DNA of 42,856 bases, taken from positions 1-42,856 of the forward strand of contig JAJDAT010000033.1 of the NCBI GenBank assembly GCA_029261715.1. Reading direction: 5' to 3'. The notes beneath the pieces were generated by a model that did not search any database, was not told the DNA's origin, and worked only from the letters and a program-made list of their open reading frames with translations. Source of the stretch: Nitrospinia bacterium (GTDB taxonomy: Bacteria > Nitrospinota > Nitrospinia > Nitrospinales > JAJDAT01). Shown here piece by piece: positions 11,971 through 24,562 of this stretch. Positions within the stretch are counted from its first letter, which is position 1. The number at the start of each line of letters is the position of its first letter. The position numbers were made by a program, and so were the translations under genes.

Positions 11971-12348
11971 ATGAGTGATAAAAAAATATTAGTTGTAGAC
12001 GATTCGAACGTAATGCGGCAGATTATTAAGAATAATTTGAAGCAATTAGGTTTTTCACCCGACAATATTACCGAAGCGGAAGATGGGGCCGCAGGTTTAA
12101 AGTCTTTAGGCGCAAATATGGTTGATCTAGTTATTTCTGATTGGAATATGCCTAAAATGACTGGTATTGAATTTTTGAAAGCTGTTCGGGCCGATGACGG
12201 TTTAAAGGCAGTTCCTTTTATGATGGTTACTTCGGAAACTGAAAAAGAAAAAATCATGGAAGCTGTTCAAGCCGGCGTTAATCAATATATTGTGAAACCT
12301 TTCAATGCGAATCAATTAGAAGAAAAAATCAAAGCTATTTTTGGTTAA
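11971..12348 (+). CDS. cheY: CheY-type single-domain response regulator
   Basis: A 125-residue receiver domain and nothing else. Acidic pocket Asp10/Asp11, phosphoacceptor Asp57 in VISDWNMPKMTG, switch Thr87 in MVTSE and Lys109 in YIVKPF are all present. The wording (NVMRQIIKNNLKQLGF, GVNQYIVKPF) is that of chemotaxis CheY. Phosphorylated by CheA, it would bind the flagellar switch; the CheX homologue downstream would dephosphorylate it. It has its own promoter candidate and a strong terminator directly after the stop, so it is probably transcribed alone. Confidence 0.9.
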   Translation: MSDKKILVVDDSNVMRQIIKNNLKQLGFSPDNITEAEDGAAGLKSLGANMVDLVISDWNMPKMTGIEFLKAVRADDGLKAVPFMMVTSETEKEKIMEAVQAGVNQYIVKPFNANQLEEKIKAIFG

Positions 12349-12357
12349 TTTTTTTTT

Positions 12358-12399
12358 AGGCCAAGGTTAAAAGCTATTTTTTAACCTTGGCCTTTTTTA
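12358..12399 (+). terminator. Rho-independent terminator after cheY
   Basis: AGGCCAAGGTTAA (12358-12370) and TTAACCTTGGCCT (12381-12393) form a perfect 13-bp stem with a 10-base loop, followed by T residues. It begins 10 bases after the cheY stop and also has a T run before the stem. Confidence 0.93.
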
Positions 12400-12867
12400 T
12401 TTCCTTCCTTCTTTTTATCCTCCCTCTCGATATTTTTATTTTTTCTTGAACCAGGCTGGCTTGTTTAAAATATGAGTCCGTTTGGAAAACTTTATAGTTT
12501 TTCTAAAAATACACTTGTCGTTCTTGCAAAATAAAAGAATGGTTTTGTTGGAATAATATTTAACACCAATTGTTGGTGTTATTTCTGTTTAGAGGTTCAA
12601 TTTGATTTTTACATAGCCTTCAAAAACGGGGAGTTAATTGAAGAAAAAATAATTTTTTTGTTGACAGGATTCTATGAAACGTTTTTAATATAGTATATGT
12701 TTGAAAAATTGAAGTTTATTTGATTGTTCTGTTGAGTAAGCAGTTCTGAGTTTTTATATAAGTTTCAAGAAGCCCAAACGGGCATAACGATTTAATGGTC
12801 TCATTTTTTTGTGGATAGAATGAGATAGAGAAATGAAACGCGACCAACCTCGAAAAAAGGAAAAGCT
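12400..12867. other. 468-base intergenic region upstream of cheX
   Basis: AT-rich, with no open frame having a ribosome binding site and no RNA gene recognised. The promoter candidate at 12661-12691 is the only clear element, which would leave a leader of roughly 170 bases before cheX. The leader could hold regulation, but I see no known riboswitch. Confidence 0.45.
12661..12691 (+). promoter_or_regulatory. candidate sigma-70-type promoter of cheX
   Basis: A perfect TTGACA at 12661-12666 is followed by overlapping -10-like boxes: TTTAAT at 12684-12689 (17-base spacer) and TAATAT at 12686-12691 (19-base spacer). It faces cheX. Confidence 0.45.
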
Positions 12868-13386
12868 ATGGCAGCCTTGGATTTATCGGATGAGCAAACG
12901 CTAGAAACATTAACTGACTGCGTTATTAAAGGGACAGAGAGCATTTTCACCACCATCCTTGGATCAGATACTAAATATTGTGAAGGTGGCGTTGATGGCA
13001 TAGGCGGCGAGGGCGTAGTTGGAATTATTTCTTATGTCGGAGATATTTCCTGGTCAATGATATTGGTTTTGCCAAAAGAGTCTGCAATAAAAATGGGAAA
13101 TCAATTTACAGGTTTTGAGGTTTCTTATGATAGCCCTGATATGGGCGACGTTGTTGGTGAATTGGCGAATGTTTTAGCTGGAGATTTAGTCGGTCGTTTA
13201 AGTACGGAAGGGGTTAAAGTTCAGATGTCTTTACCTACAATTATGAGAGGTGAAAATGTTGAGCCATTTTTACCAAGAGGGATCCCTTCAAAGAAAATGG
13301 GTTTTTCTTCCAGCCATGGTAATTTTACTTTAAAAGTAGCAGGTTCGAAGCCTGACCATTTAGGGCACAAAAAACCAGGCGCTTAA
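12868..13386 (+). CDS. cheX: CheX-type CheY-P phosphatase
   Basis: A 172-residue cytoplasmic protein of the CheC/CheX/FliY phosphatase superfamily. The active-site pattern D-x3-E-x2-N is present once, as Asp94, Glu98 and Asn101 (DVVGELAN); the single copy points to CheX rather than CheC. LVLPKESA before it and GDLVGRLS after it also fit the CheX fold. It would hydrolyse the phosphoryl group on CheY. It has its own upstream region and a terminator downstream, so it is separate from the cheA-cheW unit although next to it. The ATG follows an AAAGGAAAAG ribosome binding site. Confidence 0.8.
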   Translation: MAALDLSDEQTLETLTDCVIKGTESIFTTILGSDTKYCEGGVDGIGGEGVVGIISYVGDISWSMILVLPKESAIKMGNQFTGFEVSYDSPDMGDVVGELANVLAGDLVGRLSTEGVKVQMSLPTIMRGENVEPFLPRGIPSKKMGFSSSHGNFTLKVAGSKPDHLGHKKPGA

Positions 13387-13468
13387 AAACAAAATAAAGC
13401 GTCGTAGGAAAAGTATTTCTGCTTTTTTATTTTTTATGTTTACATTCAGTGTTAAACAGTTTAGTATT

Positions 13469-13501
13469 AGGAAAATCTACTTTTAGGTTTTCCTTTTTTT
13501 T
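13469..13501 (+). terminator. Rho-independent terminator after cheX
   Basis: AGGAAAATCTA (13469-13479) pairs with TAGGTTTTCCT (13484-13494), including one G-U pair, around a four-base loop, and is followed by eight T residues. It lies 80 bases after the cheX stop. Confidence 0.75.
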
Positions 13502-13581
13502 TGCCTAAATGCTTAAAGAACTTAAGCAAAAAAAATAAGTTTTCGGTACTAATATTGTCATTTTGAAGTATAATTACAGTA

Positions 13582-13606
13582 TTATTAGAACGGTTAGTTC
13601 TAATAA
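13582..13606. promoter_or_regulatory. 10-bp perfect inverted repeat upstream of cheA
   Basis: TTATTAGAAC (13582-13591) and GTTCTAATAA (13597-13606) are exact inverted copies around a five-base spacer, about 70 bases before cheA. No T run follows, so it is not a terminator. It could be an operator or a leader hairpin. Confidence 0.4.
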
Positions 13607-13647
13607 ACCGAAAGTGCTTGTGAAGGTTAATAAATAAATAATTGAAT

Positions 13648-13675
13648 CTGGATTAAATTTCCAGGAGGTTTCCTG
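13648..13675 (+). promoter_or_regulatory. cheA ribosome binding site inside a short hairpin
   Basis: CAGGA (13662-13666) with the Shine-Dalgarno AGGAGG can pair with TCCTG (13671-13675), which touches the ATG. A competing pair is CTGGA (13648-13652) with TCCAG (13660-13664). The two stems share bases 62-64 and exclude each other. The AGGAGG decides the start at 13676. A role in translation control is only inferred. Confidence 0.35.
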
Positions 13676-16456
13676 ATGGATGATGTGATCAATGAGTTTT
13701 TGGTTGAAAGTTTTGAAAATTTAGACCAATTGGATCAAGATTTGGTGGATTTGGAGCAAGACCCTTCCAATACCGAACTTTTAGGTAATGTATTTCGTAT
13801 TATTCATACCATTAAGGGAACCTGTGGGTTTTTAGGTTTCTCAAAGTTAGAATCATTAGCTCATGTAGGAGAAAACTTATTAAGTCGACTTCGCGATCTG
13901 GAATTAGCTTTGAATCCCGAAATTACTAGCGGAGTTTTAGCCATGTTTGATGGGGTTCGTAGGATTCTTAGTTGTATTGAGTCCGACCAGAACGAAGGTG
14001 ATGAGGATTTTACTGCATTAAAAGATAAATTAACCCGACTTACTAAAGGTGAGTCCGGTTTAGGAGATGCTACTGCTCCAGCTGAAGCCGCCCCTGCTCC
14101 ACAAGAGGAATCTGCGCCACCCGCAAACGAAAAACCTGAAGAACCGCAACCTGAAGCTCCTGCGCCAACAGCTGCTGCTGAAACTCATGAAGAGCCAGAA
14201 ATTAATGATGAGATGGAAGCGGTGGTGAATGAGTTTTTAGTTGAAAGCTACGAAAACTTAGATCAAATAGATCGAGACTTAGTGGATTTAGAACAAAATC
14301 CTCAAGATAAAGAACTCTTAAGTAGTATTTTCCGAATTATTCATACTATCAAAGGAACCTGCGGGTTTCTGGGGTTTTCTAAGCTTGAGTCTTTGACTCA
14401 TGTTGGAGAAAACCTTTTAAGTAAATTACGAGAAGGTGAGTTAACTCTTAATCCAGTAATCGCAAGCGCTTTGTTAAAGATGGTAGATGCGGTTAGGCAA
14501 ATTCTTGGAAGCATTGAATCTGATAAAAATCAAGGCAATGTAGATTATGGTTCTTTGATTGAAGTTTTGAGTAAGCTAACTAAAGGAGAAGCGGTCGACG
14601 AGGTTCCAGACGCGTCGCCAGCATCTGAAGAAAATCCATCTGAAAAAGTAGAGGCAAAAGCCGAGACAAGCGTTGTCCCAGTCGCTGAAAATTCAGCTGC
14701 TTCAGCCGAGAGTGTGGAGCCTTCTGCTGAGAAGAAACCAGAACGCCGGCAAGAGTCTAGAGGAGCTGGTGTTTCAGAGTCAAGTATTCGGGTAGATGTT
14801 GGATTGTTAGATAAATTAATGAACCTTGTTGGTGAGTTGGTTCTTGCCCGCAATCAAATAATGCAACATTCCTCTAAAAACGACGATAAGGATTCAGCTT
14901 TTGCGGCTAGTTCTCAGCATTTAAATTTAATTACCACAGAGTTGCAAGAAGGAGTAATGAAAACACGGATGCAACCTATCGGGAATGTTTGGAGTAAATT
15001 TCCGCGTGTAGTTAGAGATCTTGCCGTTGCTTGTAATAAAAAAGTTCGAATCGATATGGAAGGAAAAGAAACTGAACTTGATAAAACCATTATTGAAGCT
15101 ATAAAAGATCCCTTAACTCATATTATTCGGAATTCTGTCGATCACGGAATTGAGAGCCCAGAGGACCGTATTGCTAAGGGGAAGGACGAAGAAGGAAGTC
15201 TTTTGCTAAGAGCTTTCCATGAGGGCGGCCAGGTTATTATAGAAATTGTAGATGATGGCGGTGGTATCGATCCAGAAAGAGTGAAGAAAAAAGCCATTGA
15301 AAAGCATGTAATAACTTCTGATCAAGCGAGCCGGATGGGTGAACGCGAATTGATTAATTTAATTTTTGCTCCTGGTTTTTCCACTGCCGCTGCAATTACC
15401 AACGTGTCTGGACGAGGCGTTGGCATGGATGTTGTTAAAACAAATATCGAAAAAATAGGCGGTTCGGTTGATATACACAGTAAGTTTGGAGAAGGCACGA
15501 CTTTAAAAGTAAAAATTCCTTTAACTTTGGCAATTATTCCGGCGCTTGTCGTTACTTGTGGTGGGGAACGGTATGCTATTCCTCAAGTCAATTTGTTAGA
15601 GTTAGTTCGATTGGATCAACAGGCTAACCGCGATGTGGAGATGATCCATGGAACTCCGGTTTACAGATTGCGCGGAAATTTGTTGCCATTGGTAAACTTG
15701 AATGAAGAGCTGGGTTTTAAACAAGGAAATGACAATTTGGACGATGCAAAAATCATTGTCGTTTTACAAGTGAATGATCGACACTTTGGATTAGTTGTGG
15801 AGGGAATCGCCGATACTGAAGAAATTGTTGTTAAACCGCTTAGCAAACAGTTAAAAGGCACTAACGCTTTTGCGGGAGCCACAATCATGGGTGATGGAAG
15901 AGTGGCTCTTATTCTAGACGTATTAGGTTTAGCGCAATCTTCCAGAGTTCTATCAGAAGTGGCGGAAAGAGCTTTGAGCGAAAAAACAACTGTAGAAGCG
16001 AAGAAATCGGCGTCTACACAAAATCTCTTGGTATTTGCTGTTGGTCAAAAAGGTAGAATGGCGATTATCTTGGATATGGTTGGACGCTTGGAAGAATTTA
16101 AAACCTCTGAAGTTGAGAAGTCTGGTAGTTTGGACGTTGTTCAATATCGTGGAGAAATAATGCCTTTGATTTATTTGTCGCAAGTGTTTAGCGCGGATAC
16201 CTATGGGGAAGAGAAAGAGATTATGCAGTCGGTAGTATATTCTGAAAATGGCCGCAGCGTTGGGTTGGTGGTTGACCAAATTATCGATATTGTAGAAGAA
16301 GAAGTGTCGATTCAAAAAGGTTCTGATAGACCTGGGGTTCTTGGCACTGCAGTGATCAAGCAAAGAGTTACGGATCTCGTTGATGTGCGAGATGTTATTC
16401 AGTCTACTATCATGGGATATTATGATTCTGAAACGCCCGCGTTACAGGAGGGTTAA
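13676..16456 (+). CDS. cheA: CheA chemotaxis histidine kinase with two Hpt and two CheW-like domains
   Basis: A 926-residue cytoplasmic kinase. Order: Hpt1 (about 1-124, phospho-His44), Pro/Ala/Glu-rich linker, Hpt2 (183-303, His223), a second Glu/Ala/Pro-rich linker, dimerisation domain P3 (about 370-425), ATPase P4 (N box with Asn486, DDGGG at 526-530, GRGVGM at 579-584), CheW-like P5 (about 621-758), and a second diverged CheW-like domain (about 783-915). No P2 CheY-binding domain is evident. The two Hpt domains share the same IIHTIKGTCGFLGFSKLES core and look like a recent tandem duplication. The kinase would phosphorylate CheY and CheB. It starts behind AGGAGG, and cheW follows two bases after its stop. 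Confidence 0.93.
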   Translation: MDDVINEFLVESFENLDQLDQDLVDLEQDPSNTELLGNVFRIIHTIKGTCGFLGFSKLESLAHVGENLLSRLRDLELALNPEITSGVLAMFDGVRRILSCIESDQNEGDEDFTALKDKLTRLTKGESGLGDATAPAEAAPAPQEESAPPANEKPEEPQPEAPAPTAAAETHEEPEINDEMEAVVNEFLVESYENLDQIDRDLVDLEQNPQDKELLSSIFRIIHTIKGTCGFLGFSKLESLTHVGENLLSKLREGELTLNPVIASALLKMVDAVRQILGSIESDKNQGNVDYGSLIEVLSKLTKGEAVDEVPDASPASEENPSEKVEAKAETSVVPVAENSAASAESVEPSAEKKPERRQESRGAGVSESSIRVDVGLLDKLMNLVGELVLARNQIMQHSSKNDDKDSAFAASSQHLNLITTELQEGVMKTRMQPIGNVWSKFPRVVRDLAVACNKKVRIDMEGKETELDKTIIEAIKDPLTHIIRNSVDHGIESPEDRIAKGKDEEGSLLLRAFHEGGQVIIEIVDDGGGIDPERVKKKAIEKHVITSDQASRMGERELINLIFAPGFSTAAAITNVSGRGVGMDVVKTNIEKIGGSVDIHSKFGEGTTLKVKIPLTLAIIPALVVTCGGERYAIPQVNLLELVRLDQQANRDVEMIHGTPVYRLRGNLLPLVNLNEELGFKQGNDNLDDAKIIVVLQVNDRHFGLVVEGIADTEEIVVKPLSKQLKGTNAFAGATIMGDGRVALILDVLGLAQSSRVLSEVAERALSEKTTVEAKKSASTQNLLVFAVGQKGRMAIILDMVGRLEEFKTSEVEKSGSLDVVQYRGEIMPLIYLSQVFSADTYGEEKEIMQSVVYSENGRSVGLVVDQIIDIVEEEVSIQKGSDRPGVLGTAVIKQRVTDLVDVRDVIQSTIMGYYDSETPALQEG

Positions 16457-16458
16457 TA

Positions 16459-16920
16459 ATGGAAGTTGAAAAGCAGTTTTGTACTTTTTATGTAGACGAT
16501 TTATTTTTGGGGGTTGAGGTTGCAAAGGTTCAAGAAGTCCTGAGATATCAGGAAATGACGAGTGTTCCTCTTTCTTCCCCAACAGTTAGTGGTTTAATAA
16601 ATCTAAGAGGTCAAATTGTTACTGCAATTGATTTAAGAAAACGTTTGGAGTTGAATGGTAGGCCTGAAGGACAATTGCCAATGAACGTCGTTGTTCGTAC
16701 TAACGAGGGAGTTGTTAGCATGTTGGTAGATAGCATTGGAGATGTTTTAGAGGTTCCTGACAATTCTTTCGAAACGCCGCCTGAAACGATTGATGGAATC
16801 ACGCGCCATTTAGTTTTAGGAGTTTATAAGCTTCCAGATAGCTTGTTGTTGATTCTTGATACAGAAAAAGCAGTTAACCTTGAAAGTGTTCCCGACGAGG
16901 TAAAAGCAAAACATGCTTAA
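16459..16920 (+). CDS. cheW: CheW chemotaxis coupling protein
   Basis: A 153-residue single-domain coupling protein. FCTFYVDDLFLGVEV, VSGLINLRGQIVTAIDLRKRL and SMLVDSIGDVLEV are classic CheW segments, including the NLRG turn that contacts CheA and receptors. It links receptor arrays to CheA P5. GGAGGG lies inside the end of cheA, and the start is two bases after the cheA stop, so the pair is certainly cotranscribed. It is the last gene of the rightward unit; a hairpin shared with convergent cheB follows. Confidence 0.93.
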   Translation: MEVEKQFCTFYVDDLFLGVEVAKVQEVLRYQEMTSVPLSSPTVSGLINLRGQIVTAIDLRKRLELNGRPEGQLPMNVVVRTNEGVVSMLVDSIGDVLEVPDNSFETPPETIDGITRHLVLGVYKLPDSLLLILDTEKAVNLESVPDEVKAKHA

Positions 16921-16930
16921 ACGTTTTATT

Positions 16931-16955
16931 AAAGTCGGCTTTTAAAGCCGACTTT
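16931..16955. terminator. bidirectional terminator between cheW and cheB
   Basis: AAAGTCGGCTT (16931-16941) pairs with AAGCCGACTTT (16945-16955) around a three-base AT loop. T and A runs on both sides let it serve both converging transcripts. It overlaps the last codon and stop of cheB. Confidence 0.75.
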
Positions 16956-18063
16956 AGTTTGGCATCCAAGCGTATCTACCTACTTTTACTCTTTCTACTA
17001 TTTCCCTTGCGATCTCTTTAAGAGGCAGTACCTTTTCGGCCATACCAGACTTCGCCACGAATCCAGGCATTCCCCAAACCACGCTAGTTTCTTCGTCCTG
17101 AACGACAATTTGACCGCCCACTTTTTTGATGTGCTCGCATCCGATTAAGCCATCTTGCCCCATTCCAGTTAGAATGACTCCCAATGTTCTTGCCTTATAA
17201 ATTTCACAAACTGATCGAAACAATACATCAACTGCCGGTCTGCAAGAATTTTCTAGTGGAGCTTGGTTGGTGTTTATCGTAACGGCGGTACCATTTTTAC
17301 TTAAGACCATATGGAAATTCCCTGGCGCAATCCATATGGTTCCTGGCTCTAGTTTTTTCCCAGGTTCGCCTTCTTTAACGGTTAGTTTACATTTTTCGTT
17401 TAAGCGATCCGCTAGAAGTTTTGTAAAGAAAGGCGGCATATGTTGGACAAGTACCACTGGAACCGGAAGGTTGGCTGGAATTGATGGTAAAAGTTCTGCC
17501 AAGGCATTTGGACCTCCAGTGGAAACTCCAATGGTTAGGATATCTATTTTCCCTTTATTGATGGCTGCTGTTTTAACTGCAGACCCGCCAGCTCCCAAAC
17601 CGCCTTTGGCGAATTTACTTGAAAGGGAAGGAGATAGTTTAGGCGTTGATCTTCCACACAGAGCTTTAATTTTAGGTATTAGTTCATTTTTTACCTGATC
17701 CATTGCTTTAGAAACGCTGCCAACATTTGCCGGTTTGGTCACATAATCACTAGCTCCAAAGGATAAGGCGTCTAGGGTAGCTTTTGCTCCTCGTTGAGTA
17801 AGAGTACTAAACATGATAATAGGAACTTTTTTATTCCTTTTCCGAATTTCTTTGAGGGCTTGGATTCCATCCATTTCCGGCATTTCGATATCCATAGTTA
17901 CTGCGTCTGGTTTTAGGTTATCGAATTTGGTCTGAGCTATTTTACCATTGGCGGCGGTCCCAATAACTTCAATTTCGGAATCTGTAGCTAAAGTATCGGT
18001 TACTATTCGCCTGACTACAATTGCGTCATCTACTACTAAAACTTTGATTTTATTTAGGGCCAT
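16954..18063 (-). CDS. cheB: CheB chemotaxis methylesterase/glutamine deamidase
   Basis: A 369-residue protein with an N-terminal receiver (phospho-Asp58 in TMDIEMPEMDG), a Ser/Gly/Lys-rich linker, and a C-terminal methylesterase domain. The catalytic triad is Ser181 (GVSTGGP), His208 (VQHMP) and Asp304 (TGMGQDG). It removes methyl groups from receptor glutamates after phosphorylation by CheA and gives adaptation. It is transcribed toward cheW, and no cheR is visible in the window, so the opposing methyltransferase must be encoded elsewhere. The ATG has no obvious Shine-Dalgarno. Length and motif spacing are normal. Confidence 0.93.
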   Translation of the reverse strand: MALNKIKVLVVDDAIVVRRIVTDTLATDSEIEVIGTAANGKIAQTKFDNLKPDAVTMDIEMPEMDGIQALKEIRKRNKKVPIIMFSTLTQRGAKATLDALSFGASDYVTKPANVGSVSKAMDQVKNELIPKIKALCGRSTPKLSPSLSSKFAKGGLGAGGSAVKTAAINKGKIDILTIGVSTGGPNALAELLPSIPANLPVPVVLVQHMPPFFTKLLADRLNEKCKLTVKEGEPGKKLEPGTIWIAPGNFHMVLSKNGTAVTINTNQAPLENSCRPAVDVLFRSVCEIYKARTLGVILTGMGQDGLIGCEHIKKVGGQIVVQDEETSVVWGMPGFVAKSGMAEKVLPLKEIAREIVERVKVGRYAWMPN

Positions 18064-21267: not shown

Positions 21268-21498
21268 ATGGAAAAAAACGCATTAAAAAAACGTGTTATT
21301 GAAGCTGTTCCTGGGCTTATAGCCTTGCCTATTATACTTTTGGGCATGGTAGGTAGCGGCTGTGAAGGAGAGCACGACCTTTTGACGACAGGATTTAATT
21401 GTGAAAATCCTTTTCACGTAAATCATTCAACTTGTGGCACTACCACTACGGTTGCCTCAAGCTCCACTACAAGTTTTTTGAGCCCCAACGTGGGGTAG
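21268..21498 (+). CDS. very small putative lipoprotein
   Basis: A 76-residue protein: basic start (MEKNALKKR), hydrophobic stretch LIALPIILLGMV, then GSGC, a lipobox-like site with Cys32. The mature part is about 45 residues, has two further cysteines (FNCENPF, STCGT) and ends in a Thr/Ser-rich run. No family was recognised. The start has only a weak Shine-Dalgarno, so expression is less certain. A CCCCAACGTGGGG hairpin lies over the stop, without a T run. Confidence 0.5.
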   Translation: MEKNALKKRVIEAVPGLIALPIILLGMVGSGCEGEHDLLTTGFNCENPFHVNHSTCGTTTTVASSSTTSFLSPNVG

Positions 21499-22642: not shown

Positions 22643-23896
22643 TTATTTTACAGAAACGCTTCCTTCAAGCTTTTTGATGGCATCGATCCTATGTAATAGG
22701 GGTGGGTGAGAGTAATTTAGAAATACATAAAAAGGATGCGGTGTTAAGTTTGACAAATTCTGTACGCAAAGTTTTTTTAACGCAGTAATTAAAGGCTCTG
22801 TTTGCCCTGTTGTTTCTGCGGCAAATTGATCTGCCTCAAATTCGTGTTTTCGAGATTGTCGTTGCAGAAAAATAGACAAAAATAATTCAATGGGAGTGAA
22901 TAGCATTCCAAAGAAGATCAAGCCAGCATACACGGACATTTCGTCCATATAAAAAGCGGAAAATAATTCGGGTGATTTTAGAAAAATGGAAAGTAGAAAG
23001 AATAAAAATCCCATATGAATAATAGAAGACGTCATTCCGATATAAATATGCTTCTTTTTATAGTGACCAATCTCATGGGCGATTATAGATACAAGCTCTT
23101 TAACGCTATTACCTTCTAAAAGAGTATCGAAAAGCGCAATACGTTTGTTTTTCCCAAAGCCTGTAAAAAATGCGTTGGATTTACTTGACCGTTTAGAGCC
23201 ATCCATTACATAGATATTCTTTAAGGGAAAAGAAACAGATTTTGAGTAGTTAAATATAGCTTCTTTTAATTGTCCGTCTTCCAAGGGTTCAAATTTATTA
23301 AATAAAGGCATTATCCAGGTAGGAGCTATAAACTGAAGGACCAACATATATAAAATTGTCGCTATCCAGCAATAAAACCATCCATCTGCTTTTGCATATT
23401 CTAAAAAGGATAAAATTCCGGCTAGGATTGGAATTCCAAGAGCGCACGTTAATAAAATGGATTTGAGAGCGTCAGTCCAAAAGGTTTTTAGGTCCATTTT
23501 ATTGAATCCAAACTTTTCCTCGATTACAAAAGTTGAATAGATTCTAAAGGGTAATGAAAGTAAATTTTGCCCAAACATCAAAATCGAGATGAAAAGAATG
23601 CCGGTAGTTACGGGCCCCCAACCAAAACCTCTTAACCATTGATCTAAAGAATTAAAGCCTGCAGCAAACCAAAATAACAAAATAATGATTAAATCTGCCC
23701 CACCCGAAAATAATTCAAGTTGAGTTGTTGCACGTAAGTAATCTTGAGATTTTTTGTATTTTTCCGTTTCGTATATGCCCTTTACCTCATTGGGTAAATT
23801 AGCCTTAAGGTTGGAAATATTTAAATAGTCGGCACAAATACTCAAAAGAAATCCAAAGACTAAAGAAAAAAGAACGATATATCCTATTAAATTCAT
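22643..23896 (-). CDS. M48 family, Ste24/CAAX-type membrane metalloprotease
   Basis: A 417-residue multi-pass membrane protease. Zinc ligands are His274 and His278 in the HEIGH motif (catalytic Glu275) and Glu354 in HEFEADQFA. The N-terminal half has several hydrophobic segments and the family phrases YEVFVIEEKFGFNKM-like and SKRSSKSNAFFTGFG, which mark the Ste24 subfamily rather than HtpX. Bacterial members are thought to work in membrane protein quality control, as no prenylated CAAX substrates are known. The downstream exported protein is likely cotranscribed. Length is typical. Confidence 0.92.
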   Translation of the reverse strand: MNLIGYIVLFSLVFGFLLSICADYLNISNLKANLPNEVKGIYETEKYKKSQDYLRATTQLELFSGGADLIIILLFWFAAGFNSLDQWLRGFGWGPVTTGILFISILMFGQNLLSLPFRIYSTFVIEEKFGFNKMDLKTFWTDALKSILLTCALGIPILAGILSFLEYAKADGWFYCWIATILYMLVLQFIAPTWIMPLFNKFEPLEDGQLKEAIFNYSKSVSFPLKNIYVMDGSKRSSKSNAFFTGFGKNKRIALFDTLLEGNSVKELVSIIAHEIGHYKKKHIYIGMTSSIIHMGFLFFLLSIFLKSPELFSAFYMDEMSVYAGLIFFGMLFTPIELFLSIFLQRQSRKHEFEADQFAAETTGQTEPLITALKKLCVQNLSNLTPHPFYVFLNYSHPPLLHRIDAIKKLEGSVSVK

Positions 23897-24116
23897 GTTT
23901 ATTTCTAAATATTGTTATAAAAAAAAGTTCTCTGTCTACTATTTTGTCGCTTTTATTGTTGTTTTTAGCATGCGAATGAATTAGTTCTCATTTTGATATT
24001 CGAATGTGGAAATTTTTACCATCTTGATACAAGAGATGTTCTTTTTTTTAACTAATAAAGGTGGCTTAGTTAATTAATGTGTTTATTGTCAATGGTTTAG
24101 CTTGTTTTTTTAAGTT

Positions 24117-24133
24117 TTGGCATTAACTTTGCT
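24117..24133 (+). promoter_or_regulatory. sigma-54 (-24/-12) promoter
   Basis: TTGGCATTAACTTTGCT: the GG of TGGCA (24119-24120) and the GC of TTGCT (24131-24132) are exactly 12 bases apart, as required for RpoN promoters (TGGCAC-N5-TTGCW). Transcription would begin near 24144, 34 bases before the start codon of the small gene. Confidence 0.65.
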
Positions 24134-24177
24134 ATATAAAGTGTTTATTAACTTAACATTTTTTTAGGAGAATTAAA

Positions 24178-24357
24178 ATGAACCTGGTAATGGAAAAATC
24201 TGAAAATAAAGCTGGAATTGATGATAAGGAAAACCCAAACTCTGAACAAGGTTTTGATAGCGATGAAAAAAGCTTTGGCAAAAAATGTGGTCAAGTTACG
24301 GAAGGTTTGAAAAAAAGACTTCATGATTTTTGGCACGGTTGGGTGGTGGTTGACTAA
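24178..24357 (+). CDS. 59-residue acidic small protein behind a sigma-54 promoter
   Basis: The frame runs from ATG 24178 to TAA 24357 and has AGGAG (24166-24170) seven bases before the start. The N-terminal two thirds are acidic and Asn/Ser-rich (KAGIDDKENPNSEQGFDSDE); the C-terminal part is basic and then aromatic (EGLKKRLHDFWHGWVVVD), an amphipathic-helix-like end that might dock on a membrane or partner. One Cys is present. No family was recognised. A near-consensus sigma-54 promoter directly upstream argues strongly that it is a real, conditionally expressed gene. The next gene, on the other strand, ends 10 bases downstream. Confidence 0.65.
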   Translation: MNLVMEKSENKAGIDDKENPNSEQGFDSDEKSFGKKCGQVTEGLKKRLHDFWHGWVVVD

Positions 24358-24367
24358 CTTCGTATAA

Positions 24368-24562
24368 CTAATTTTCAGATCTTTCGCATTTCTTACAATA
24401 AAGAGGAAAGCCAATAAAACTTTCTCTTCCTTTTTGCGTTTGTGTCCAAGGTCTTATTTTCCATGGGGGATTGTGACGAACATGTTGTCTATGCCCGCAA
24501 TCTAGTAAAGCAGTCCAATGGTCCTCCTCATCTTTTATAAAATCTACGATGTTCCTTTCCAT
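24368..24562 (-). CDS. DUF3565 family protein
   Basis: A 64-residue protein that matches DUF3565: IVDFIKDEEDHWTALLDCGH, then QHVRHNPPW, RPW and FPLYCKKCE. Cys22, His24 and the closing CxxC form a likely zinc site. The function of the family is unknown. It follows the trypsin-fold gene by 16 bases and is the last gene of the minus-strand run starting at 27049. Confidence 0.88.
   Translation of the reverse strand: MERNIVDFIKDEEDHWTALLDCGHRQHVRHNPPWKIRPWTQTQKGRESFIGFPLYCKKCERSEN

Follow-up and report, generated by a model that had tools for sequence, protein, structure and literature searches.

Does the DNA at positions 24,117–24,357 contain a sigma-54 promoter that drives expression of a short protein, and to which cellular programme might such a protein belong? 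The window analysed here, 42,856 nucleotides in full, is one whole contig of a Nitrospinia bacterium with a genome totalling 5.33 Mb; the GC content of the window is 36.7%. An open reading frame (ORF) of 59 residues begins with an ATG at 24178 and its stop codon ends at 24357 (plus strand). It shares a 281-bp intergenic region with a divergent gene for an M48 (Ste24/CAAX-type) membrane protease (22643–23896, minus strand), recognised from the ORF list and a family match. On the other side, a convergent DUF3565 gene (24368–24562, minus strand, assigned by family match) lies 10 bp past the stop codon. Because this neighbour is convergent and so close, the layout suggests that a sigma-54 transcript would probably carry the 59-residue gene alone.

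The sigma-54 promoter element and its upstream region

The predicted −24/−12 promoter, TTGGCATTAACTTTGCT (24117–24133, plus strand), consists of the −24 element TTGGCAT (24117–24123), five intervening nucleotides and the −12 element TTGCT (24129–24133). It has GG at −24 and GC at −12 at the fixed spacing, with near-consensus flanks. Transcription from sigma-54 promoters begins ~11–12 nt after the GC and is lost without rpoN. The start predicted for the window site is at ~24143–24144, which would give a leader of ~34 nt up to the ATG, and the sequence contains a Shine-Dalgarno motif, AGGAG (24166–24170, plus strand), 7 nt before that ATG. For comparison, the cross-species sigma-54 consensus is quoted as mrNrYTGGCACG-N4-TTGCWNNw and the Geobacter consensus as TTGGCACGGTTTTTGCT (PMC2725144).

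Close copies of the element are over-represented in the genome. The exact pattern TTGGCAT-N5-TTGCT occurs 11 times in 5.33 Mb, against ~0.7 expected from base composition at 36.7% GC. Similarly, the looser pattern YTGGCAYRNNNNTTGCW gave 8 matches and its reversed control none; the window site is not among these 8, as it has T where the pattern wants R. The pattern TGGCAYNNNNNTTGCW gave 16 matches versus 3 for its control. When two mismatches were allowed, the counts rose to 275 and 211 and the excess was mostly gone, so near-exact sites alone are informative.

These genome-wide counts come from pattern searches, and matrix scoring was applied to the window and to simulated sequence. The matrix drew on 13 further intergenic sites of this genome and excluded the window site; its members were hand-picked as intergenic and leading an ORF and so represent RpoN sites with a selection bias, of which the reversed-pattern controls are free. 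With this held-out matrix, the window site scored 22.7 bits and the runner-up position in the window 10.7 bits, and the trusted matrix sites scored 15–25 bits in leave-one-out analysis. Simulated first-order Markov sequence yielded one site at or above 22.67 bits in 20 Mb. The corresponding machinery is encoded in the genome, which has one copy of the RpoN DNA-binding domain (E 4e-61) and ~16 strong Sigma54_activat proteins (enhancer-binding proteins), none of them listed on this contig. An earlier note on this DNA had described −24/−12 elements with exact spacing and near-consensus bases, followed by a suitably placed AGGAG and ATG; the checked coordinates and the held-out score bear out this description. 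Its further claim, that a sigma-54 promoter drives a short protein here, is backed by the promoter matrix, the presence of rpoN and enhancer-binding proteins, the codon usage of the frame and the absence of family matches.

Two upstream features are candidate regulatory sites. A 38-bp block adjoining the −24 element (24080–24117, plus strand) is 87% identical to a block at C49:407848–407884. This is the best non-self genome match of the intergenic DNA (E 2e-4), and the second copy precedes the sigma-54 promoter that serves a gene for a cNMP-binding protein. The placement of the two copies differs, one touching the −24 element in the window and the other lying ~127 bp 5' of the promoter at the C49 locus. 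Judging from the shared sequence, the block is possibly a common regulatory site. Further upstream, a perfect dyad, TTAACTAA-N10-TTAGTTAA (24048–24073, plus strand), has its centre ~83 bp ahead of the predicted start, a position expected for an activator site. Simulated upstream regions contained an equally good dyad in 13% of cases, and the dyad was not shared by the other sigma-54 promoters at which it was sought; we therefore give it little weight, as a weak candidate for an activator site. Its absence at the sibling promoters led us to reject it as an enhancer site common to the regulon.

Coding capacity of the transcript

The 59-residue frame combines genome-like codon usage with a ribosome-binding site. 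Its codon log-odds of 0.375 bit per codon ranks first among the 117 window ORFs of 40–90 residues and is on a par with the best-scoring known genes; annotated genes range from 0.14 to 0.44. The antisense ORF overlapping the frame scored −0.08, and the codon score of the frame was matched by 10 of 5000 mononucleotide shuffles.

Small RNAs under sigma-54 control are known from other bacteria, and they resemble the present transcript in that it, too, would be short, monocistronic and sigma-54-dependent. The product might then be a small RNA of ~250–300 nt, with the ORF incidental or secondary; a precedent for such regulation is an ncRNA belonging to the regulon of an enhancer-binding protein in Desulfovibrio (PMC4641369). 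However, the first-ranking codon usage and the strong Shine-Dalgarno motif set the present locus apart from such RNAs. The predicted fold of the transcript is ordinary, being no better than that of shuffled sequences (z +1.9), an Rfam search with the transcript region returned no match at E ≤ 1, and a terminator scan found none. Collectively, the fold, Rfam and terminator results speak for an mRNA rather than a structured small RNA. A structured RNA as the product is thus not supported, and we consider the small-RNA explanation improbable.

It is slightly less probable still that the promoter is a chance resemblance and the ORF behind it young or non-coding. Such an origin would accord with the absence of a homologue from every collection searched (see below) and with two other exact matches in the genome, which lie inside a gene or lack a clear gene downstream. 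The window site, in contrast, is intergenic and has a held-out score on a par with flagellar promoters, and the frame that follows has both the right Shine-Dalgarno/ATG distance and gene-like codon usage. On the strength of the matrix score, the presence of rpoN and its activators, the codon usage and the AGGAG/ATG distance, the promoter and the 59-residue gene are very likely real. The sigma-54 programme of this lineage, which is poorly represented, thereby gains a short and easily overlooked gene, and the case shows how a promoter model specific to one genome can recover small genes lost to length cut-offs.

Elsewhere in the window, a 76-residue ORF at 21268–21498 resembles a short lipoprotein (MEKNALKKRVIEAVPGLIALPIILLGMVGSGCEG...) and has fairly gene-like codon usage; it is a possible further overlooked short gene.

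Relatives and predicted structure of the product

The 59-residue protein had no match in Pfam, NCBIfam, PHROGs or PDB sequences, in agreement with its initial description as a product of unknown family. It has no paralogue in its own genome and no relative in the phage and viral contig collections searched. In a tblastn search of 100 related genomes, none of them from the same family, it matched only at E ≥ 0.018, and these matches were to larger, unrelated frames or to frames interrupted by stops. As no genome of the same family was among those searched, the lack of relatives argues only weakly for novelty. The gene neighbourhood was likewise without counterpart. Of the 64 genomes of the order that were searched, this one included, 31 have DUF3565, and the DUF3565 loci that were fetched had no M48 neighbour, no 59-residue neighbour and no sigma-54 site at the corresponding place. 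Nothing matching was found in the M48 neighbourhoods of 80 named loci.

The earlier note had also portrayed an acidic, Asn/Ser-rich body. The acidic character holds (9 Asp/Glu versus 4 Lys/Arg in residues 1–33), and the Asn/Ser richness proved a mild overstatement, with 4 Asn and 4 Ser among 59 residues. A single-sequence structure model has a flexible N-terminal half and one C-terminal helix spanning approximately residues 27–56 and ending in FWHGW. The pTM of this model is 0.31, and the middle of the helix, residues 31–50, has moderate block pLDDT values of 77–84. Modelling thus suggests, with low to moderate confidence, a flexible acidic N-terminus followed by one amphipathic C-terminal helix, the acidic half probably being disordered or flexible. 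We read F33, C37, V40, L44, L48, F51 and W55 as lying on one face of the modelled helix; the hydrophobic moment of residues 33–56 is equalled by 1.3% of shuffles.

In its small size and its combination of a flexible part with a helix, the product recalls the anti-sigma factor FlgM, which acts in the motility programme. The 59-residue protein differs from it in having no match to the Pfam FlgM family (PF04316), and FlgM genes lie elsewhere in the genome; identity with FlgM was accordingly rejected. The same genome carries two FlgM-family genes (L236 and L237; C25 and C38).

Sibling promoters and the probable programme

What the other sigma-54 sites precede bears directly on the role of the 59-residue protein. 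By Pfam assignment, sibling sites lie in front of flhA (FHIPEP), flgB, flgC, fliK (Flg_hook) and fliL, and in front of genes for a GspH-type pseudopilin, two cNMP-binding proteins and a response regulator. The name flgB is our reading of a Pfam match to a flagellar rod-type protein only. Sibling sites with a recognisable gene therefore mostly lead flagellar, pilus or signalling genes, and some lead non-motility genes. A similar motility and surface bias is found in the sigma-54 set of Desulfovibrio vulgaris, in which flagella and cell exterior form the largest group (PMC4641369).

Since most siblings with a recognisable gene precede flagellar, pilus and signalling genes, the 59-residue protein probably serves motility or surface signalling as a small accessory specific to its lineage. 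We put at about one in two the probability of the full proposal, namely a real RpoN-dependent single-gene unit encoding a motility, chemotaxis or surface accessory that docks through its helix. According to this model, sigma-54 polymerase at 24117–24133 would be activated by an enhancer-binding protein, probably one controlling flagellar or surface-structure genes; transcription would begin at the predicted start, and the message would be translated into the 59-residue protein. Most likely, the product would then dock through its C-terminal amphipathic helix, either to a partner protein or to the inner membrane face, and would play a small accessory part in motility, chemotaxis or the surface programme. 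The promoter match, the coding frame, the monocistronic layout and the flagellar and pilus bias of the sibling promoters are supported by computation; against the proposal stands the absence of any homologue or conserved synteny in the order searched. Should the motility link hold, flagellar or chemotaxis control would have a new accessory in this protein.

The promoter class is that of the RpoN-dependent flagellar middle-class genes of Desulfovibrio, Geobacter, Vibrio and Campylobacter, and is shared with flgB, flgC, fliK, fliL and flhA of this genome. Unlike those genes, the one studied here encodes an orphan product with no known flagellar domain, is probably monocistronic and lies outside any flagellar cluster. 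Flagellar genes are not adjacent to it, and a che cluster lies 6 kb away. This chemotaxis cluster (11971–18063) comprises genes for a response regulator, CheX, a large CheA with Hpt and CheW domains, CheW and CheB.

With ~16 enhancer-binding proteins in the genome and siblings at non-motility genes, the motility link holds by majority only. The small protein could instead be real and sigma-54-driven within a non-motility regulon (envelope stress, or a metabolite or metal response), perhaps tied to the M48 protease. The number of enhancer-binding proteins, the siblings preceding cNMP-binding, DsrE-like (our own reading) or periplasmic genes, and the divergent protease gene on the same 281-bp intergenic region are all consistent with this explanation. 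However, flagella and pili account for the larger share of siblings with a recognised gene, a divergent arrangement by itself is no proof of co-regulation, and the matrix scan found no strong sigma-54 match on the protease side of the intergenic region. We therefore regard a non-motility regulon as possible and less probable than the motility and surface reading.

Other short ORFs follow sibling sites as well. An orphan ORF of 51 residues at C38:117485 (L232:2486–2697) has a consensus sigma-54 promoter and equally gene-like codon usage, and the gene that follows it encodes an MCP-hemerythrin receptor. A 44-residue ORF at C26:93059, also behind a sibling site, has poor codon usage. Comparison of the 59-residue protein with the other sigma-54-led small ORFs of the genome revealed no relationship. 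It is conceivable, if rather unlikely, that the 59- and 51-residue proteins, and perhaps more, belong to a group of small proteins particular to this lineage and individually equipped with consensus sigma-54 promoters, which would constitute a hitherto unseen class of small regulators or adaptors of motility and chemotaxis. In our assessment, the 59-residue gene is a well-supported, ordinary orphan within a familiar type of regulon.

Two further groups of sigma-54-associated genes were observed in the genome. Three similar short cNMP-binding-type proteins, two of them with sigma-54 promoters of their own, are encoded on C49 (L130:822–1208 and 1570–1986) and at C18:15750 (L141). A sigma-54-type site at C26:3427 (L144/L231) precedes the gene for a 103-residue orphan with a likely membrane segment, which adjoins an enhancer-binding protein gene (C26:4045–4545).
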